Origin: Nitrospirota bacterium
GTDB taxonomy: Bacteria > Nitrospirota > Thermodesulfovibrionia > Thermodesulfovibrionales > UBA6898
NCBI GenBank assembly: GCA_021811105.1
Contig: JAJZPM010000001.1
Location: forward strand, 186,001-250,000
Direction: 5' to 3'
DNA: 64,000 bases
Positions 14,010 through 24,856 of this stretch are shown here, one piece after another (position 1 is the stretch's first letter; each line of letters opens with the position of its first letter). The position numbers and the translations under genes are program-made. The notes below the pieces were generated by a model. The model was not told the DNA's origin. It worked only from the letters and a program-made list of their open reading frames with translations, and ran no database searches.

Positions 14010-14399
14010 ATGAAAAAGGTAGTCGTATTTGTTGCAGTGGTATTTCTAATGACAGGCATTGTCTATGCCAAAGAGTTCGAGGTGATGCAGAAGGCCGGCA
14101 ACTATTATGTTGAATTCAAAATAGATAATCTCCGCGTGGGCGCCAATAACGTTGCCATAGAAATTAAAGACAAATCCGGCAAGTATGTGTCCGATGCTAA
14201 AGTTGCCGTAACGTACAAAATGCCTGAGGGAATCGATCTGCCCCCAATGCATTTTAAGGCGGATATGAAACTTGAAGGCAATGAATACAAGGGAGTTATA
14301 AAGATCCCTATGGCGGGGGATTGGGAGACCGAGGTGGATATCACACGAGCCGGCAAAACTGAAGGTATCACGTTTTATTTGCATACTTTCGGACAATAA
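14010..14399 (+). CDS. Secreted FixH/YtkA-like domain protein
   Basis: The protein has 129 residues from an ATG preceded by AAGGAGG. A signal peptide covers about 1-20, with a cut after YA. The mature part is a single immunoglobulin-like domain with GNYYVEFKIDN, GANNVAIEIKDKSGKYV and the closing GDWETEVDITRAGK, the pattern of YtkA-like/FixH domains. The segment LPPMHFKADMK carries Met and His residues of the kind that could bind copper. It opens a series of copper-handling genes, so a periplasmic metallochaperone role is likely but inferred. Confidence 0.75.
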   Translation: MKKVVVFVAVVFLMTGIVYAKEFEVMQKAGNYYVEFKIDNLRVGANNVAIEIKDKSGKYVSDAKVAVTYKMPEGIDLPPMHFKADMKLEGNEYKGVIKIPMAGDWETEVDITRAGKTEGITFYLHTFGQ

Positions 14400-14472: not shown

Positions 14473-15336
14473 ATGGCGGTTTTGAAAAAAAACAAAAATA
14501 GAATTATAGACCCTGTCTGTGGGATGACAATTAGCAGGAAAGACTCTGCGATCAGATCTTCGTATCTTGGGATGGACTATTATTTCTGCTCGGAGCGGTG
14601 TAAGTCGATTTTTGAGGAGGATGCTGATGCTGTTTTTGCGATGAAAGCGGCGAGGGAAGAAGTTTCAGAGGAGGAGAGAACGGAGTCTCTCGATCAAATG
14701 GCGGATGAATTGGCGCATGAGATCAGAAATCCCCTGACATCCATCGGAGGCTTTGCGCGAAGAGTTCATGGAGTGCTTCCGGAAAATGATCCTGGCAGGA
14801 AATACCTGGAGATCGTCATCGAGAATGTGGCTCGACTTGAGAATATGATAACAAAGCTCGTGGAGCTGAAGACACTGGGGGCTTTCCATGCGGAACCGTC
14901 CGATTTCAACCGGATCATTACCGAAACGGTTGATTCTTTTGGGAAGGAATTTGCGGAGAAGGGAGTAAACGTAGAGCTCGATCTGACTGACAGTCCTCTC
15001 ATTCCCCTGGACACGGACAAGATCAAGGCGGCCTTTGCCGCTCTTATCAAGAATGCGGTCGAGGCCATGGAGAAACCGTTCAAGCTCCTGAAGATAGCCA
15101 CGAGCATAAGGGATGAATATATCGAGGCCGAAGTGTCCGATACAGGGAAGGGCATTCCCAAGGACCGCATAAAATACATATTCGATCCCTTTTTTACATC
15201 CAAGATGTATGGGCCGGGACTTGGGCTGAAATTCACACAGAGGGTAATCCAGCTCCACAGAGGAACTATTTCGGTGAAGAGCGAGCCGGGGAAAGGTGCT
15301 GTCTTTGCCGTCAGATTGCCATTGAAGGGTCTTTGA
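14473..15336 (+). CDS. Soluble YHS-domain sensor histidine kinase
   Basis: The protein has 287 residues and no membrane helix. A YHS domain comes first (IIDPVCGM with Cys16, then MDYYFCSERC with Cys39 and Cys43). The kinase follows: phospho-acceptor His82 in AHEIRNPLTSIGGFARR, then the ATP-binding domain with IKNAVEAME (N box), SDTGKGIPKDR (G1) and GPGLGLKFTQ (G2). YHS domains are small metal-binding modules, commonly found in front of copper ATPases, as in the ATPase at 19854 of this window. I infer a cytoplasmic metal sensor kinase. No response regulator is adjacent, so its partner must be elsewhere. The spacing to the next gene is 40 bases. Confidence 0.85.
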   Translation: MAVLKKNKNRIIDPVCGMTISRKDSAIRSSYLGMDYYFCSERCKSIFEEDADAVFAMKAAREEVSEEERTESLDQMADELAHEIRNPLTSIGGFARRVHGVLPENDPGRKYLEIVIENVARLENMITKLVELKTLGAFHAEPSDFNRIITETVDSFGKEFAEKGVNVELDLTDSPLIPLDTDKIKAAFAALIKNAVEAMEKPFKLLKIATSIRDEYIEAEVSDTGKGIPKDRIKYIFDPFFTSKMYGPGLGLKFTQRVIQLHRGTISVKSEPGKGAVFAVRLPLKGL

Positions 15337-15376: not shown

Positions 15377-15580
15377 ATGGAATGGATTAGGGAAAATTGG
15401 TTTTTTCTCCTTTTTTTCATTTTTTTTATTGCGATGCATCTTTTCGGCCACGGCATGCACGGAGGCCATGGTAGGCATGGAGGCCACGGCGGGCACGGCG
15501 GAGGAAGTGGAGAGCATGAGGGACACGGTAAGGGACCGGGAGAGAAAGAGGAAAAGAAAGGAGGCGGGGGATGCTGCTGA
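15377..15580 (+). CDS. Small His-rich membrane protein (DUF2933-like)
   Basis: The protein has 67 residues from the ATG after TTAGGGGGTG. One hydrophobic helix (about 8-22) is followed by a Gly/His-rich tail with repeated GGHG units. There are nine histidines in all, then a charged segment and a terminal CC. This fits the small DUF2933-type proteins found in heavy-metal resistance clusters. It probably holds copper or another soft metal at the membrane surface. It overlaps the next gene by ten bases. Confidence 0.65.
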   Translation: MEWIRENWFFLLFFIFFIAMHLFGHGMHGGHGRHGGHGGHGGGSGEHEGHGKGPGEKEEKKGGGGCC

Positions 15581-15849
15581 AAATAAAGGTTGTCAGCTGG
15601 TCTTTAGGAATATTCTTTGCGGTTTCATTTATTCTCTGTGTCCTCTACGGACTGGTCGTGCCCCCGAGGCTTCACGGCATGTCGGCATTTCTTGAGGCGG
15701 TGCTGCCTGCCTTCAAGTGGCTTACCTTCGGCGGCTTTGTTCTCGGCCTCGTTGAGAGTTTTCTCTACGGGGTATATGTAGGAATAGTTTTCGTGCCTAT
15801 ATACAATTTCATTAGCAAGAAGTGGGGTACGCAGGTGGAGGACGACTGA
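15571..15849 (+). CDS. Small membrane protein (DUF5676-like)
   Basis: The protein has 92 residues and two or three membrane helices. Conserved-looking segments are ILCVLYGLVVPPRLHGM, FLEAVLPAFKWLTFGGFVLG and the closing FVPIYNFISKKWG. The layout matches the DUF5676 family of metal-cluster membrane proteins; the family name is from memory of the pattern. The function is unknown. It is translationally coupled to the His-rich protein before it, and the methyltransferase gene starts one base after its stop. Confidence 0.6.
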   Translation: MLLKIKVVSWSLGIFFAVSFILCVLYGLVVPPRLHGMSAFLEAVLPAFKWLTFGGFVLGLVESFLYGVYVGIVFVPIYNFISKKWGTQVEDD

Positions 15850-15850
15850 A

Positions 15851-16489
15851 ATGCATGGAGAGGACATACCATATGCTTATGGCTTTTGGAGCCTCGTCGT
15901 GGTCAACGTTGTTCTTTTCGGGTTCTTTATTCTCAGTTTCCTGACGCCGGTGAAGAAGAGGGAGTGGCGTTCCATGGGGGTTACCCTAGCCTTCTTCGTA
16001 GCCCTTTTCACGGAGATGTACGGGTTCCCGCTGACGATTTATATCCTTACCGGCATTCTCGGCAGTAAATACCCAGTCCTGAACCCCTTTTCCCACGCAA
16101 GCGGTCATCTCTGGCTCGTATGGTTCGGCGGAGGGCCGGCGATGATGACACTGATCCACCTTATCAGCAACGGCCTGGCCATCGCCGGATTTGCAATCAT
16201 GTGGAAGGGTTGGAAGCTAATTCACGGCTCAAAGGGCGGTTTGGTGACAGAAGGCCTGTACGTCTATGTCCGTCATCCACAGTACTCCGGGCTATTCCTC
16301 GTCATGATAGGGATGCTGATCCAGTGGCCGACGATCATTACGGCCTTGATGTTCCCGGTGCTTGTTTATGTCTATTACCGCTTGTCGAAGAGGGAAGAGC
16401 GTGAGATGATTGAATTATTCGGGGATGAATACAGGAGATATGTCGAAAAGACCCCGATGTTCATACCGAAACTGGGAGGCCGAGGCTAA
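15851..16489 (+). CDS. Isoprenylcysteine carboxyl methyltransferase (ICMT) family membrane protein
   Basis: The protein has 212 residues. About five membrane helices precede the ICMT/PEMT C-terminal core: GLYVYVRHPQYSGLFLVMIG, then YYRLSKREEREMIELFGDEY and TPMFIPKL. The RHP and EER..F motifs form the S-adenosylmethionine pocket in this superfamily. Such bacterial proteins methylate small membrane-borne substrates, and the substrate is not known. It sits in the metal cluster between DUF5676-like and heavy-metal-domain genes and overlaps the latter by one base. A fragment of a second copy lies at 10996-11118. Confidence 0.85.
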   Translation: MHGEDIPYAYGFWSLVVVNVVLFGFFILSFLTPVKKREWRSMGVTLAFFVALFTEMYGFPLTIYILTGILGSKYPVLNPFSHASGHLWLVWFGGGPAMMTLIHLISNGLAIAGFAIMWKGWKLIHGSKGGLVTEGLYVYVRHPQYSGLFLVMIGMLIQWPTIITALMFPVLVYVYYRLSKREEREMIELFGDEYRRYVEKTPMFIPKLGGRG

Positions 16490-16704
16490 TGGAGAAACTT
16501 TCCTTTAATGTTGAAAAACATTTCTGCGAGGAATGCTCTCTGGCTTTAAGAAGGTTTATCGGAAACATGGAAGGCGTCGAATCCATAGATGTTGAAGAAG
16601 GGAAGATCGCCGTTGTTTTCGACGGGGCCAAAATAACCGAAGAAAAGCTTGAAAGGCTTACAAAAGACAGCATAGAGAAGCTTGGTTACAAACTGGAAGA
16701 ATAG
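16489..16704 (+). CDS. Heavy-metal-associated (HMA) domain protein, CopZ-like
   Basis: The protein has 71 residues, the length of a single HMA domain. The metal motif CEEC is at Cys13-Cys16 (HFCEECSLALRRFIG), followed by the usual second strand GVESIDVEEGKIAVVF and the closing SIEKLGYKLEE. It differs from the classical GMxCxxC form by having HFCEEC. It is probably a cytoplasmic Cu(I) carrier that delivers metal to the ATPase at 19854. Its ATG overlaps the stop of the methyltransferase gene. Confidence 0.85.
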   Translation: MEKLSFNVEKHFCEECSLALRRFIGNMEGVESIDVEEGKIAVVFDGAKITEEKLERLTKDSIEKLGYKLEE

Positions 16705-16717
16705 AAAGGAGGAACAC

Positions 16718-17464
16718 ATGAAGAGGTTAATTATCGTTTCCGCGATTTTGTTTGTCACGGCAGGCGCGGCATATGCAGAGACTGGCATGATGAGCGGCGG
16801 AATGATGGGCGGGCAAAAAGGCGGAAAAGAACAGCAGGGAATGATGATGCAGGAAGGCATGATGAAGGACATGATGCCCATGATGCAGATGTGCATGCCG
16901 ATGATGAAGCAAATGATGGGACAAGGCATGATGATGCAGGATATGATGCATATGATGAAGGACATGATGAAGATGCAGAAAAAAATGATGATGGGCATGA
17001 GCCGGAGCGAAAAGAAAGAAATGACGATGGAGATGGGCAAGATGATGGAACAGATGGACAGCATGATGTCCGATATGCGCGGGATGACGATGCAGGGCAT
17101 GATGGGCGGCGCATCTTCAACCGCGACCCCTTCAAAGGAAGGGCAAAAGGGCAACACAGCCGGCAAAACTCGGGAAGCGGCTGAGGCGGGTGTTACTGTC
17201 AAGGTCACGCTCGAAGATCGAAATGAGATTCTTAAGTTCAAGGTCGCCCTTGATACGCATACCGCTGAGCTCGATAAATATAAATTTGCCGAGATCGTTG
17301 TATTAAGGGCCGATGGAAAGGAATATAGGGGTAGCGTGAAATCCGAAGAAGGCTCCGGACATCACCGTTCTGCGCTAATTGAATTCGAGAATCCGAAGAC
17401 AAAGGAGGTCTCGGTCGTAGTGAAAGATGTCGCCGGTGTCAAAGAGAGGGCATTTAATTTCTAG
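16718..17464 (+). CDS. Met-rich periplasmic protein, probable Cu(I) binder
   Basis: The protein has 248 residues from the ATG after AAAGGAGG. A signal peptide covers 1-20 (cut after YA). Residues about 21-130 contain about 46 methionines, mostly as MM, MMM and MxxM pairs with a few Cys and His, typical of Cu(I)/Ag(I) sponges. After a linker (about 130-150), a compact C-terminal domain (about 155-248) with VTVKVTLEDRNEILKFKVAL follows, which has no Met cluster and may be beta-rich. The composition and location say periplasmic copper storage or delivery. The C-terminal domain is not one I can name. Confidence 0.75.
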   Translation: MKRLIIVSAILFVTAGAAYAETGMMSGGMMGGQKGGKEQQGMMMQEGMMKDMMPMMQMCMPMMKQMMGQGMMMQDMMHMMKDMMKMQKKMMMGMSRSEKKEMTMEMGKMMEQMDSMMSDMRGMTMQGMMGGASSTATPSKEGQKGNTAGKTREAAEAGVTVKVTLEDRNEILKFKVALDTHTAELDKYKFAEIVVLRADGKEYRGSVKSEEGSGHHRSALIEFENPKTKEVSVVVKDVAGVKERAFNF

Positions 17465-19853: not shown

Positions 19854-22268
19854 ATGAAAGTCAAAGATCCTGTCTGCGGAATGCAGATCGAAGACAAGGA
19901 AGCGGCAGGCACCTCAACCTACAAAGGAGAGACGTACTATTTCTGCTCGACGTCATGCAGAGATAAATTTGTCCGAAATCCTGGAGCTTTTATTGGCAAA
20001 AAACCATTTTCGGGTGGTGAAAAAAGGGCACCAAAAAGTGAAGATATCTATACCTGTCCTATGCATCCTGAGGTCAGGCAGCCCGACCCCGGTTCTTGCC
20101 CGAAATGCGGAATGGCGCTTGAGCCGGTTGCGCCTTCCATAGCGGCAACTAAAACCGAATGGACATGCCCGATGCATCCGGAGATAGTACGAGACGTGCC
20201 GGGCAGTTGTCCAATCTGCGGCATGGCGCTGGAGCCAAAGACGATCACAGCAGAAGATGAGGGAAGCCCTGAACTCATCGACATGACGCGGCGGTTCTGG
20301 GTCAGCACCGTGCTGACGGTCCCCTTGGTAATTATCGCCATGCGCCATTATGTTCCCGGACTTTCATTTATCGACCGCCTGCTCTCTCCTGAGCTTCTGA
20401 AATGGCTGGAAATGATCCTGGGCACACCGGTTGTCTTATGGGGAGCTTGGCCCTTCTTTGTCAGGGGGGTGCAGTCGGTCGTCACCTGGAACCCGAACAT
20501 GTTCACCCTGATCGGGCTTGGCGTCGGCGTCGCCTATCTCTACAGCGTCATCGGCGCCATCTTCCCCTGGCTCTTTCCGGAGTCGTTCCGCGGCAAAAGC
20601 GGGGAAGTAGGCCTTTATTTCGAAGCCGCTGCTGTCATTGTCACCCTCGTTTTGCTCGGCCAAGTGCTCGAACTTCGGGCGCGCACCAAGACGGGCGCTG
20701 CGATAAAAGCCCTGCTCGGCCTCGCCCCGAAGACGGCCCGCATACTGAGGAATGGGAATGAAGAGGATGTTCCCCTTGAGCAGGTCCAGAAAGGTGATCT
20801 TCTCCGCGTGAGACCGGGTGAAAAGATCCCGGTTGACGGTACTGTCACTGAAGGGTTGAGCAGCGTTGATGAATCCATGATCTCTGGTGAGCCGATCCCG
20901 GTGATGAAGCAGTCAGGTGACCGGGTGATCGGCGCTACCATAAACGGAACCGGAACGCTCGTCATGAAGGCGGAGAAGGTCGGTGCCGAAACGCTGCTTG
21001 CCCAGATCGTCCATATGGTTGCCGAAGCACAAAGAAGTCGCGCCCCAATTCAAAAACTTGCAGACATCGTTGCTGGATATTTTGTCCAGATAGTGGTGAG
21101 CATCGCGGTTCTCACCTTCGTGGTCTGGGCGTGGATTGGACCTGAGCCGCGCATGGCTTACGCCCTTGTCAATGCGGTTGCGGTGCTTATCATCGCCTGC
21201 CCCTGTGCCCTCGGCCTGGCAACGCCGATGTCGATCATGGTTGCGATGGGCAAGGGAGCAACAGGCGGAGTGCTTTTTAAAAACGCAGAGGCTATCGAGG
21301 TGATGAAGACAGTTGATACCCTTGTTACAGATAAAACCGGCACGCTTACCGAGGGGAAACCGAAGCTGGTAAGCGTGGTGCCCACCGAAGGTTTCGACGA
21401 GAAGTCGCTCCTCCACCTCGCTGCAAGCATTGAGATGGGGAGCGAGCACCCCTTGGCTGCAGCGATCATTGCCGGTACAAAAATAAAGGATATTTCCCCT
21501 TCAAAGGTTGAGTCCTTTGAGTCGCTTACCGGCCGCGGAGTAACGGGTATGATTGACGGACGGAAGATCGCTCTGGGTAATCGCAAGCTTTTGGAAGAAC
21601 TCGGTATCATACAGGGCGAACTACCTGACAAGGCAGAGTCCATGCGCAAGGAGGGACAAACCGTCATGTTCGTCGCGGTGGATGGCAGGGCTGCGGGGCT
21701 CCTCGGGGTTGCAGACCCGATCAAGTCAACGACAGCAGAGGCTATCGAAAGGCTTCATAGTGAAGGCATCAGGGTCGTTATGTTAACCGGCGACTCCAGA
21801 ACGACTGCTGAAGCTGTTGGGAAAAAACTTGGCATAGATGAAGTGCTGGCCGAGATCCTGCCGGACCAGAAGGCGGCGATGGTCAAACGGCTGCAGGATG
21901 AAGGACGGATCGTGGCGATGGCAGGAGACGGCATTAATGACGCGCCGGCCCTTGCCCAGGCACATGTTGGTGTTGCTATGGGCACCGGGACAGATGTGGC
22001 GATGCAGAGCGCGGGTGTGACACTGGTGAAGGGCGATCTGCGCGGAATCGTACGGGCGAGAAGATTGAGCAGGGCGACGATGCGGAACATCAAGCAGAAC
22101 CTCTTCTTTGCATTTGTCTACAACGCCTTGGGTGTTCCGATAGCAGCCGGAGTGCTTTATCCCTTTGTGGGCATACTCCTCAGCCCAATCTTTGCAGCCG
22201 CAGCGATGAGTTTTAGCTCGGTATCGGTGGTAGGCAATGCCCTCAGACTGAGAAGGGTAAAACTGTGA
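19854..22268 (+). CDS. copA: Copper-translocating P1B-type ATPase with YHS and two metal-binding zinc-ribbon-like domains
   Basis: The protein has 804 residues. A YHS domain comes first (DPVCGM with Cys8; FCSTSC with Cys31 and Cys35). Two heavy-metal-binding units follow ([15 protein letters not shown] and [15 protein letters not shown], about 67-130). Eight membrane helices include the ion-site motif CPC in [12 protein letters not shown] (about residue 447). The phosphorylation loop DKTGTLTEG (Asp about 493), SEHPLAAAI and the hinge GDGINDAPA complete the pump. The CPC motif and SEHP say Cu(I) or Ag(I) export from the cytoplasm. Ribosome site AAAGGAGG precedes the ATG. Together with the HMA carrier, Met-rich and His-rich proteins it makes this a copper-resistance region. 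Confidence 0.93.
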
Positions 22269-22275
22269 GGCAAAG

Positions 22276-23025
22276 ATGACAGACAAGCCTCTGGTATGTA
22301 TGCACTGCGGAGCGAAGATCGAGGGTGCTGCATTCATTGAGAAGGAAGGCGGTCTCTACATCGGGGAAGAGTGTTATTTTCGCGATACCTATCTCGACGG
22401 TATTGTGGACCGCATCGAAGCGAGCTACCTCGCCACGATTGAAGCATTCGTGAACGCTATTGACGCACGCGAGCATGAAACAGGGAACCATTCACTAAGG
22501 GTTTCCAGATTTGCCGTCATCCTCGGCTACCGCTTCGGAATGCGCGGCCGGGACCTGGTAGATTTATACTGCGGGGCCTTACTGCATGATATCGGCAAGA
22601 TCGGCGTCCCTGATGCCGTCTTGCTGAAACAAGGGCCCCTGAGTCCCGAAGAGGGGGAGGTTATGCACAAACACCCGGTGACCGGCTATCGGATCATAGG
22701 GCATATCGGCTATCTGAAGAATGCTGCGGAAATAATCCATGCACATCACGAGCACTTCGACGGCAGCGGTTATCCGCTCGGCCTGCGAGGGGATGACATT
22801 CCTCCGGGGGCGAGGGTCTTTTCGGTAGCCGATGCCCTTGACGCCCTGACTGTGGCGAGGCCCTATCGAAAGGCGCTCCGGTTTGAAGATGCGGTTGCCG
22901 AAATCGAAAAGGAGTCGGGCAGGATCTTTGATCCGGCCGTGGTTAGTGTTCTCAATGCGGCACTTGACGAACTCAGGAGCTTTGTCGGCAAAATCCCATC
23001 ATTTAATCTTCCTTCGGCCCGGTGA
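22276..23025 (+). CDS. HD-GYP domain phosphodiesterase with an N-terminal Cys motif
   Basis: The protein has 249 residues. The N-terminus has CMHC at residues 8-11 and Cys33, a likely small metal-binding element. The HD-GYP core has LLHDIGKIGVPD (His104-Asp105) and HHEHFDGSGYPLGLRGDDIP (about 157-176), then RVFSVADALDALT. These are the metal ligands and the GYP signature of c-di-GMP phosphodiesterases. It starts seven bases after the copper ATPase, so the two are probably co-transcribed. The Cys motif could link c-di-GMP turnover to metal or redox state; that is inference. A GGDEF protein follows 400 bases on. Confidence 0.9.
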   Translation: MTDKPLVCMHCGAKIEGAAFIEKEGGLYIGEECYFRDTYLDGIVDRIEASYLATIEAFVNAIDAREHETGNHSLRVSRFAVILGYRFGMRGRDLVDLYCGALLHDIGKIGVPDAVLLKQGPLSPEEGEVMHKHPVTGYRIIGHIGYLKNAAEIIHAHHEHFDGSGYPLGLRGDDIPPGARVFSVADALDALTVARPYRKALRFEDAVAEIEKESGRIFDPAVVSVLNAALDELRSFVGKIPSFNLPSAR

Positions 23026-23431: not shown

Positions 23432-24856
23432 ATGCTTTCCATTTTTGTCCTCTCCTTTCTTGTCGTAAGCCTCGGCGCCAATACTGTTCTCTTTCTGCTG
23501 TACTATAGAAAGCATCTCCAGAATACAAAACTGAAGAAGATCTATAACGACCTTAATGCAGAAGACGGCATCGAAAAGATGCTCAAGACCATTGGCGAGG
23601 AACTCGCCGGTTTCGGCTTGAAACTTAAAGGGACTTTTGTCAAAAACAGGAAAACCATGTCGCTGGAGGACGACAATCACGCGATCCCCGTTTTGAAACA
23701 TAGCGCCCTGGTACGGTCCTTTCTTACGATGGAGCCTGCGCCCAACGACGAACTCGGGGACAACGAGGCAGACAATTTCATCAAGGAAAAATACGGGAAA
23801 AAACTGTCCTTCCTGCCGATCAATATGAAGTGGGAAGGGCCCTGCTGGCAAATAAACGATTGCAACGACGCCGGCTGCAGTTGCTATCACAAGCAGGAAC
23901 ATAAATGCTGGGTAAAAAGCGATAAGAGATACAGGGGAGATGACCTCAAGACATATAAAGAAAAGACGGCCCGGTGCATGAACTGCCGTTCCTTCCTCCC
24001 TGTAGGGGTCTATGCCGTCTCCGGAAGGGGTGTATCCAAGGCTCATAGATACATAAGCGGCGACTTATCCGGAATAGTCAGAAACGCCGTCATGTATGAG
24101 AGAGCGCAGTACTCAGCGACCCGGGACCAGCTGACCGGCCTTTTTAACCGGCGAACCCTGTTCAAGCGGGCCTACGAGCTCATGAAACTCTCGGATCGCT
24201 ACAAGCACCCGTTTAGCCTCTGCATGCTCGACATCGATCATTTTAAGAGATTTAATGACGACTTCGGTCACGAAATAGGCGATTATGTGCTCAAAACCCT
24301 TTCAAAATTCGTGTCCACCCTTATAAGAAAAACGGATGTCCTGGCAAGGTACGGAGGAGAAGAATTTACCATCCTTTTGCCTGAAACAAAGAAGGAAGAA
24401 GCGTTTACCGTTCTCGATAAGATCAGGCAGAAGGTCGACAAAGAAATTTTCGAGTATAAGAAGGTTAAACACCACATCCAGATAAGCATGGGTATGGCGG
24501 AGCTCCATCAGGATGAGGCCCAGACGCTAAGCGATTTTTTCAAAAAGGCTGATGCCGCTCTCTATCAGTCAAAGCAGAGAGGCAGAAACATGGTTACTGC
24601 CTATGCGGATGACTTTCCTTCAGCCCCGAAAAAAGATGGTAAGAAAGGAAAGAATGTCGATAATCAGGAGCCCATCGGGAAGAAAAAGGCATCAACAAAT
24701 CGTACGTCCTCGATAAAGAGGAGGGTCCTCTCCAAGGAAACCGGCAGTGGTTCCTCTCGGGAATTGTCTGACATTCTCAGTGGGAAAATCATAAGACCGT
24801 CGAGAAATGAGCTCAAAGAGCAGTCTGATCCGGAGGAAACCGTCGAGATTGGATGA
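23432..24856 (+). CDS. Membrane-anchored diguanylate cyclase (GGDEF) with a two-CW Cys-rich module
   Basis: The protein has 474 residues. A membrane helix covers about 2-25. A Cys-rich module at about 147-195 has CWQINDCNDAGCSCY, HKCWVKS and ARCMNCRSF, the pattern of the two-CW domain, which looks able to hold a metal or cluster. The GGDEF domain begins at RDQLTGLFNRR (about 230) and has the active site YGGEEF with the substrate segment LDIDHFKRFNDDFGH. It should make c-di-GMP. The last 90 residues are low-complexity and basic (KKDGKKGKNVDN). The opposing HD-GYP enzyme just upstream also has a Cys motif, so the two may form a redox- or metal-responsive c-di-GMP switch (inference). Confidence 0.88.
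   Translation: MLSIFVLSFLVVSLGANTVLFLLYYRKHLQNTKLKKIYNDLNAEDGIEKMLKTIGEELAGFGLKLKGTFVKNRKTMSLEDDNHAIPVLKHSALVRSFLTMEPAPNDELGDNEADNFIKEKYGKKLSFLPINMKWEGPCWQINDCNDAGCSCYHKQEHKCWVKSDKRYRGDDLKTYKEKTARCMNCRSFLPVGVYAVSGRGVSKAHRYISGDLSGIVRNAVMYERAQYSATRDQLTGLFNRRTLFKRAYELMKLSDRYKHPFSLCMLDIDHFKRFNDDFGHEIGDYVLKTLSKFVSTLIRKTDVLARYGGEEFTILLPETKKEEAFTVLDKIRQKVDKEIFEYKKVKHHIQISMGMAELHQDEAQTLSDFFKKADAALYQSKQRGRNMVTAYADDFPSAPKKDGKKGKNVDNQEPIGKKKASTNRTSSIKRRVLSKETGSGSSRELSDILSGKIIRPSRNELKEQSDPEETVEIG

Follow-up and report, generated by a model that had tools for sequence, protein, structure and literature searches.

A soluble histidine kinase carrying a YHS domain in place of a receiver, encoded among copper-export genes of a Nitrospirota bacterium

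Introduction

The copper-sensing histidine kinases CusS and CopS read the periplasm. The window analyzed here, that is, the whole stretch of 64,000 nucleotides from a Nitrospirota bacterium (assembly GCA_021811105.1, contig JAJZPM010000001.1, positions 186,001 to 250,000), encodes among copper-export genes a kinase without a membrane segment, in which a YHS domain stands in front of the catalytic core.

Results

Architecture of the kinase

The open reading frame at 14473-15336 encodes a protein of 287 residues with a YHS domain ahead of HisKA and HATPase_c domains. A preliminary description, made from the sequence alone, had given these coordinates and this domain order and was right on both, as all three domains score above their Pfam cut-offs (YHS, PF04945, E 5.1e-13, 49.2 bits against a cut-off of 30.3; HisKA, E 1.5e-10; HATPase_c, E 4.2e-21). 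By Pfam, the protein has no Response_reg (receiver) domain. The same description called the kinase soluble, in agreement with a highest 19-residue Kyte-Doolittle mean of 0.81, which indicates no membrane segment. The features of the kinase are:

14473..15336, + strand: soluble YHS-HisKA-HATPase_c histidine kinase, 287 aa (Pfam; orthologs aligned)
14503..14622, + strand: YHS domain, residues 11-50, with putative metal ligands D13, C16, C39 and C43
14626..14715, + strand: signalling helix, residues 52-81, common to REC-kinases (similarity profile, receiver end, model)
14689..14877, + strand: HisKA domain, residues 73-135 (Pfam)
14716..14718, + strand: codon of the predicted phospho-histidine H82 (invariant in 10/10 orthologs)
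15010..15327, + strand: HATPase_c domain, residues 180-285, with N194, DTGKGI and GPGLGL (Pfam, ortholog alignment)

The only cysteines of the protein are C16, C39 and C43, which bears out the earlier reading of the YHS domain as Cys, then Cys-x3-Cys. The putative ligands D13, C16, C39 and C43, along with H82, N194 (N box), DTGKGI (G1) and GPGLGL (G2), are invariant in 10/10 aligned orthologs, which are 44-73% identical to the window kinase; the eleventh ortholog (genome G347) was left out of the alignment because of undetermined bases in its frame. Against the PDB, the kinase core is matched best by 9jfj (E 1.4e-29), and 8vc9 is matched over residues 61-284; the VIA-align list covers mainly kinase residues 71-287. 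Both the best PDB match of the core and the best partial NCBIfam matches are ZraS-like or AtoS-like HisKA kinases, with the window kinase scoring far below the NCBIfam cut-offs of AtoS (177.5 of 646 bits) and ZraS (150.8 of 479 bits).

The YHS domain and its putative ligands

The genome holds five YHS domains, two on copper-type pumps, two on an FAD/NAD oxidoreductase and one on the kinase. Across 20 aligned YHS domains (10 kinases, 7 pumps and 3 flavoproteins), the positions of D13, C16, C39 and C43 are invariant in 20/20, and they are spaced as are D178, C181, C204 and C208 in an adenylyl cyclase of Mycobacterium phlei. That cyclase likewise carries a YHS domain on a signalling enzyme, and its description (PMC4626032) reports that 1-10 uM Cu2+ activates the full-length enzyme, that Cu2+ does not activate the isolated catalytic domain, that EDTA abolishes the copper effect, and that Zn, Fe2+, Fe3+, Cr, Co and Ni elicit no activity with Mg. 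The two proteins differ in layout and output: in the cyclase the YHS domain is C-terminal and the product is cAMP, whereas in the kinase it is N-terminal, the product would be phospho-histidine, and the response to copper is inferred.

Probable exchange of a receiver for the YHS domain

The closest paralogue of the kinase in its own genome, C36, is 48% identical and is a REC-HisKA-HATPase_c protein without YHS. The ten YHS-kinases group as a single clade in a 40-core tree, nested among 26 REC-kinases, with support (87/91) that is not strong; the out-group consists of four further kinases, each likewise with a receiver in front. A larger tree, with 80 rows, unites nine of the ten YHS-kinases (97/99) and leaves the one of G142 unplaced. 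These trees are most simply explained by a single replacement of REC by YHS, and two separate exchanges are possible.

The position of the joint can be read from two boundaries. The receiver-model match stops 30 residues before the phospho-histidine in 41/42 REC-kinase loci, the exception, L143, being cut by the contig end. When YHS-kinases and REC-kinases are compared with this histidine as anchor, mean BLOSUM62 is above 0 at 27/28 positions from -28 to -1, versus at or below 0 at 23/27 positions from -29 to -55. Because the receiver stops at -30 and similarity starts at -28, the joint is placed at the receiver end, near residues 52-54, and the coincidence suggests that YHS probably replaced REC at this joint while the signalling helix was kept. 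The helix length is fixed on both sides of the exchange: C43 lies 39 residues from H82 in 10/10 YHS-kinases, and in the 27/29 REC-kinase loci that show a KPF motif, this motif lies 42 from the histidine. In the predicted structure a single helix, residues 51-101, runs from the YHS domain into the DHp domain, in a model that is weak over residues 61-90 (block-mean pLDDT 67-72). As judged from these comparisons, the kinase probably descends from a Rec-controlled histidine kinase whose input domain was exchanged. Identity leaves the donor of the YHS domain unsettled, with a mean of 46% to pump YHS and 42% to flavoprotein YHS.

A copper-export neighborhood

The genes around the kinase are:

14010..14399, + strand: YtkA-like protein, 73 bp ahead of the kinase gene (PF13115)
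15377..15580, + strand: small protein rich in His and Gly, one hydrophobic segment (sequence; a similar gene adjoins the kinase in L072 and L111)
15571..15849, + strand: DUF5676 two-helix membrane protein (Pfam; adjoins the kinase in L072 and L111 too)
15851..16489, + strand: ICMT/PEMT-like membrane methyltransferase (Pfam; near the kinase in L048, L072 and L111 too)
16489..16704, + strand: HMA/CopZ-like protein (just below the Pfam cut-off, 24.1 of 24.8 bits)
16718..17464, + strand: methionine-rich protein with N-terminal hydrophobic segment (sequence; no Pfam match)
19854..22268, + strand: P1B ATPase of the Cu+ type, carrying YHS at its N-terminus and two HMBD domains (Pfam, TIGR01511, motifs)

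All genes from the kinase through 17464 share one strand, and the spaces between them measure 40, -10, 1, -1 and 13 bp; scans for promoters and terminators returned hits no more numerous than in shuffles. The motifs CPC, YNx4P and MxxSS mark Cu+ pumps. The ATPase at 19854-22268 carries CPC, YNALGVP and MSFSS and scores 601.6 bits with TIGR01511 against a cut-off of 397, and its Pfam match agrees with the earlier observation that the same type of YHS domain opens a copper ATPase 4.5 kb downstream of the kinase. In all, five P1B ATPases exceed the TIGR01525 cut-off in this genome of 3.94 Mb.

Two further proteins are encoded behind the pump. The first, after a gap of 7 bp, is an HD-GYP protein (22276-23025) whose N-terminal part holds a Cys-x2-Cys...Cys stretch; L109 has a relative of it (58%) between pump and YHS-kinase, and the protein is possibly a further metal-to-signal protein. 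A GGDEF protein (23432-24856) has a cysteine-rich stretch ahead of its catalytic domain, and a stretch like it ends an 836-aa kinase in L014.

Occurrence and linkage of YHS-kinases

The preliminary description regarded a kinase with YHS in front as unusual, and a survey of such fusions supports this: among the matches listed, one spanning YHS and HisKA occurs in 11/176 genomes of the order (G000, G430, G371, G251, G156, G403, G142, G404, G418, G400 and G347), which fall in four families (f1, f3, f9 and f10). The nearest named relative, 74% identical, is the kinase of L048 from a Nitrospirota MAG, which was also the one YHS-kinase found by a contig scan with exact query patterns; its genome appears to be G430, a member of the family to which the window's genome belongs. 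In a 395-genome sample of the kinase's own phylum, the matches listed include a YHS match in a 266-aa frame of G045. Searches of other phyla, which could miss YHS joined to other kinase families, gave no YHS-HisKA match in 345 genomes of the phylum of L050 at E <= 1e-20 (all 41 rows start at model position 45 or later) or in 396 genomes of the phylum of L064 at E <= 1e-10 (rows YHS-only or kinase-only); 398 genomes of the phylum of L070 gave no match at all at E <= 1e-15, which is weak evidence.

As far as the contigs reach, a P1B ATPase lies within 8 kb of the kinase in 10/11 YHS-kinase loci. A copper-type ATPase, as judged by motif, lies within this distance in 9/11 YHS-kinase loci versus 0/25 REC-kinase loci (Fisher p = 5.8e-7, a value overstated because the loci are related); the 25 loci were drawn from 38 kinase-only matches listed to E 1.4e-21. 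The copper-type ATPases have CPC in six loci (the window, L048, L072, L074, L076 and L111, with the TM7/TM8 part cut off in L111) and CPH in three (L073, L108 and L109, the L108 frame ending before TM7/TM8). The 4.9-kb contig of L110 holds no P1B ATPase. The placement of the kinase among copper-export genes suggests that it probably reports copper inside the cell.

Three multi-TM kinases of one type also lie near copper genes with no nearby receiver (L015 6827-7873, L016 9350-10351 and L048 264-1331), the last directly upstream of the YHS-kinase. A kinase-like protein at C34:180379-181086 (L015 8379-9086) has Asp at the phospho-histidine position (VADRVRNP) and, from this substitution, is probably unable to phosphorylate itself.

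Search for a partner regulator

A PF00072 search of the whole genome gave 102 matches at E <= 1e-5, none of them within the window; two share the kinase's contig, at distances of about 56 kb and 149 kb from it. A receiver model found none in 11/11 YHS-kinase loci, as far as the contigs reach, versus receivers in 24/25 REC-kinase loci, with extra ones beside the kinase's own in 21/25. This model was trained on REC-kinase and control loci, so Pfam PF00072 serves as the independent check for the window. The earlier statement that the kinase lacks a partner response regulator thus holds for the window and extends to the related loci, none of which offers a local partner candidate.

The paralogue C36 was considered as phosphate acceptor and rejected: among the matches listed, close REC-kinases co-occur with YHS-kinases in only 3/11 genomes (G000, G430 and G142), which makes a general partner role of the C36 type unlikely.

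A recurrent type of REC-kinase locus (L014, L112-L115, L126-L142, L144 and L145) consists of a HAMP hybrid kinase, a lone receiver and the REC-kinase. A cytochrome c554-like protein is encoded in L014 and L112-L115, and these recurrent loci form a phosphorelay that possibly senses redox or haem. Since a lone receiver and a large hybrid kinase precede many REC-kinases, the YHS-kinase, which lacks both upstream, unlike most REC-kinase loci, seems to have left the relay.

Discussion

Proposed mechanism

The reading to which we assign a probability of about 0.58 is that the protein is an orphan soluble kinase whose receiver was exchanged for YHS, and that it is copper-responsive and acts via a distant regulator. 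In this mechanism, a cytoplasmic copper ion would bind D13, C16, C39 and C43. Binding would order the YHS part and alter the packing of the two signalling helices of the dimer, as receiver phosphorylation does in LvrB. The altered packing would tip the core toward its kinase or its phosphatase state at H82, and phosphate would pass to a response regulator encoded elsewhere, which would adjust copper export or the copper response.

LvrB is a Rec-controlled kinase in which receiver phosphorylation causes the signalling helices to pair as a coiled coil and releases the catalytic domains (PMC13269768). The window kinase shares with LvrB and other Rec-controlled kinases a homologous core, as the 8vc9 match over residues 61-284 shows, a continuous signalling helix from the input domain and a fixed helix length, and differs from the LvrB type in having YHS in the receiver's place.

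The preliminary description had proposed that the kinase senses the cytoplasmic metal exported by the pump. This proposal has gained support from the shared putative ligands (20/20), the ATPase linkage (9/11 versus 0/25) and the copper-switched YHS cyclase. A CsoR search that matched in 6/14 control genomes matched nothing in this genome, which counts in favor of the mechanism; none of the six MerR-family matches in the genome was assigned to copper by eye, and a CueR may be encoded. What we infer is metal binding, copper as the metal, the sign of control, the partner and the target genes.

Alternative readings

One set of neighbors bears on the identity of the signal. YHS is fused to a thioredoxin-reductase-like FAD/NAD protein at C34:183601-184776 (L015 11602-12777), L017 5391-6452, L072, L073, L074, L076 and L110; the copy at C34:183601-184776 lies 2.4 kb before the window and about 16 kb upstream of the kinase. 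An FAD/NAD oxidoreductase is present in 7/11 YHS-kinase loci (L048, L072, L073, L074, L076, L109 and L110), its YHS domain visible in five of the seven and its N-terminus cut off in L048 and L109. At the position where thioredoxin reductases carry CxxC, the copies inspected read GNIQ, and most of their cysteines lie in or just after YHS. The YHS-flavoprotein is possibly a metal reductase.

The presence of this fusion in the clusters makes a redox role possible, and the alternative that survives best, although unlikely, is that the signal read by YHS is thiol redox state or a soft metal other than copper (Zn, Cd, Hg or Ag), the kinase design being the same. The flavoprotein body without CxxC in the stretch inspected would fit this alternative, as would L075, whose sole nearby P1B ATPase has CPC without the copper TM7/TM8 motifs, and the MerR-like regulator beside a MerA-like reductase, assigned by eye, elsewhere in the genome (L166, C85:58261). 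Against a redox or other soft-metal signal stand the copper-type ATPases, by motif, in 9/11 loci, and the response of the tested YHS cyclase to copper but to none of Zn, Fe, Cr, Co and Ni (PMC4626032).

A variant of the copper reading, unlikely as well, concerns the output. Here, copper would directly switch a former relay kinase, its core and helix length unaltered, that feeds the same regulator as the relay of HAMP hybrid kinase, lone receiver and REC-kinase encoded beside a cytochrome c554-like protein. If this were true, the order would hold a matched kinase pair differing only in the input domain.

It is less probable still that the YHS domain leaves the kinase unswitched and is structural or serves docking, for example with a permanent zinc or as a binding site for the chaperone or the pump. 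Foldseek places toluene/o-xylene monooxygenase, phenol hydroxylase and ribosomal chains, which we take to be eL24, at the top for the YHS model, with all E >= 0.4; with no row at E <= 0.001, this ranking agrees with a YHS/TRASH fold and by itself proves nothing. A zinc-finger protein matched by the YHS part in a phmmer search of the PDB (E 0.0026) was spurious, with no passing stretch. Proteins of the types that Foldseek ranks first lend this alternative some weight, since PMC4626032 describes the YHS of toluene-4-hydroxylase as metal-free in the crystal and the TRASH-type L24e, which binds Cd2+, as holding its metal structurally. Opposed to it is the position of the domain: YHS occupies the receiver's place at a fixed spacing to the histidine, and a receiver at that place controls LvrB (PMC13269768).

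That the kinase is a hitch-hiker unrelated to the metal genes, its YHS a relic in a fast-rearranging metal island, would suit the neighbor order, which differs among loci, 10/11 of them on contigs below 22 kb, but is very improbable given putative ligands and catalytic motifs invariant across orthologs as little as 44% identical to the window protein and a copper link that recurs in all four families.

Relation to known systems and significance

The CusRS and CopRS systems include histidine kinases tied to copper homeostasis (PMC7763554). They sense periplasmic copper, are membrane-anchored and have a paired regulator, whereas the kinase described here has no membrane segment and no nearby receiver. 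The YHS copper switch, Rec-controlled kinases and copper kinases are all known already; what appears to be new is YHS in the receiver's place, and the literature searched, which omits most subscription journals, yielded no description of a YHS histidine kinase.

A cytosolic kinase with the YHS domain of copper pumps as its sensor would constitute another route of copper sensing. Trading a receiver for a metal domain at constant helix length is a natural experiment in which unrelated inputs drive one kinase core, and it illustrates how a kinase can become detached from its relay.
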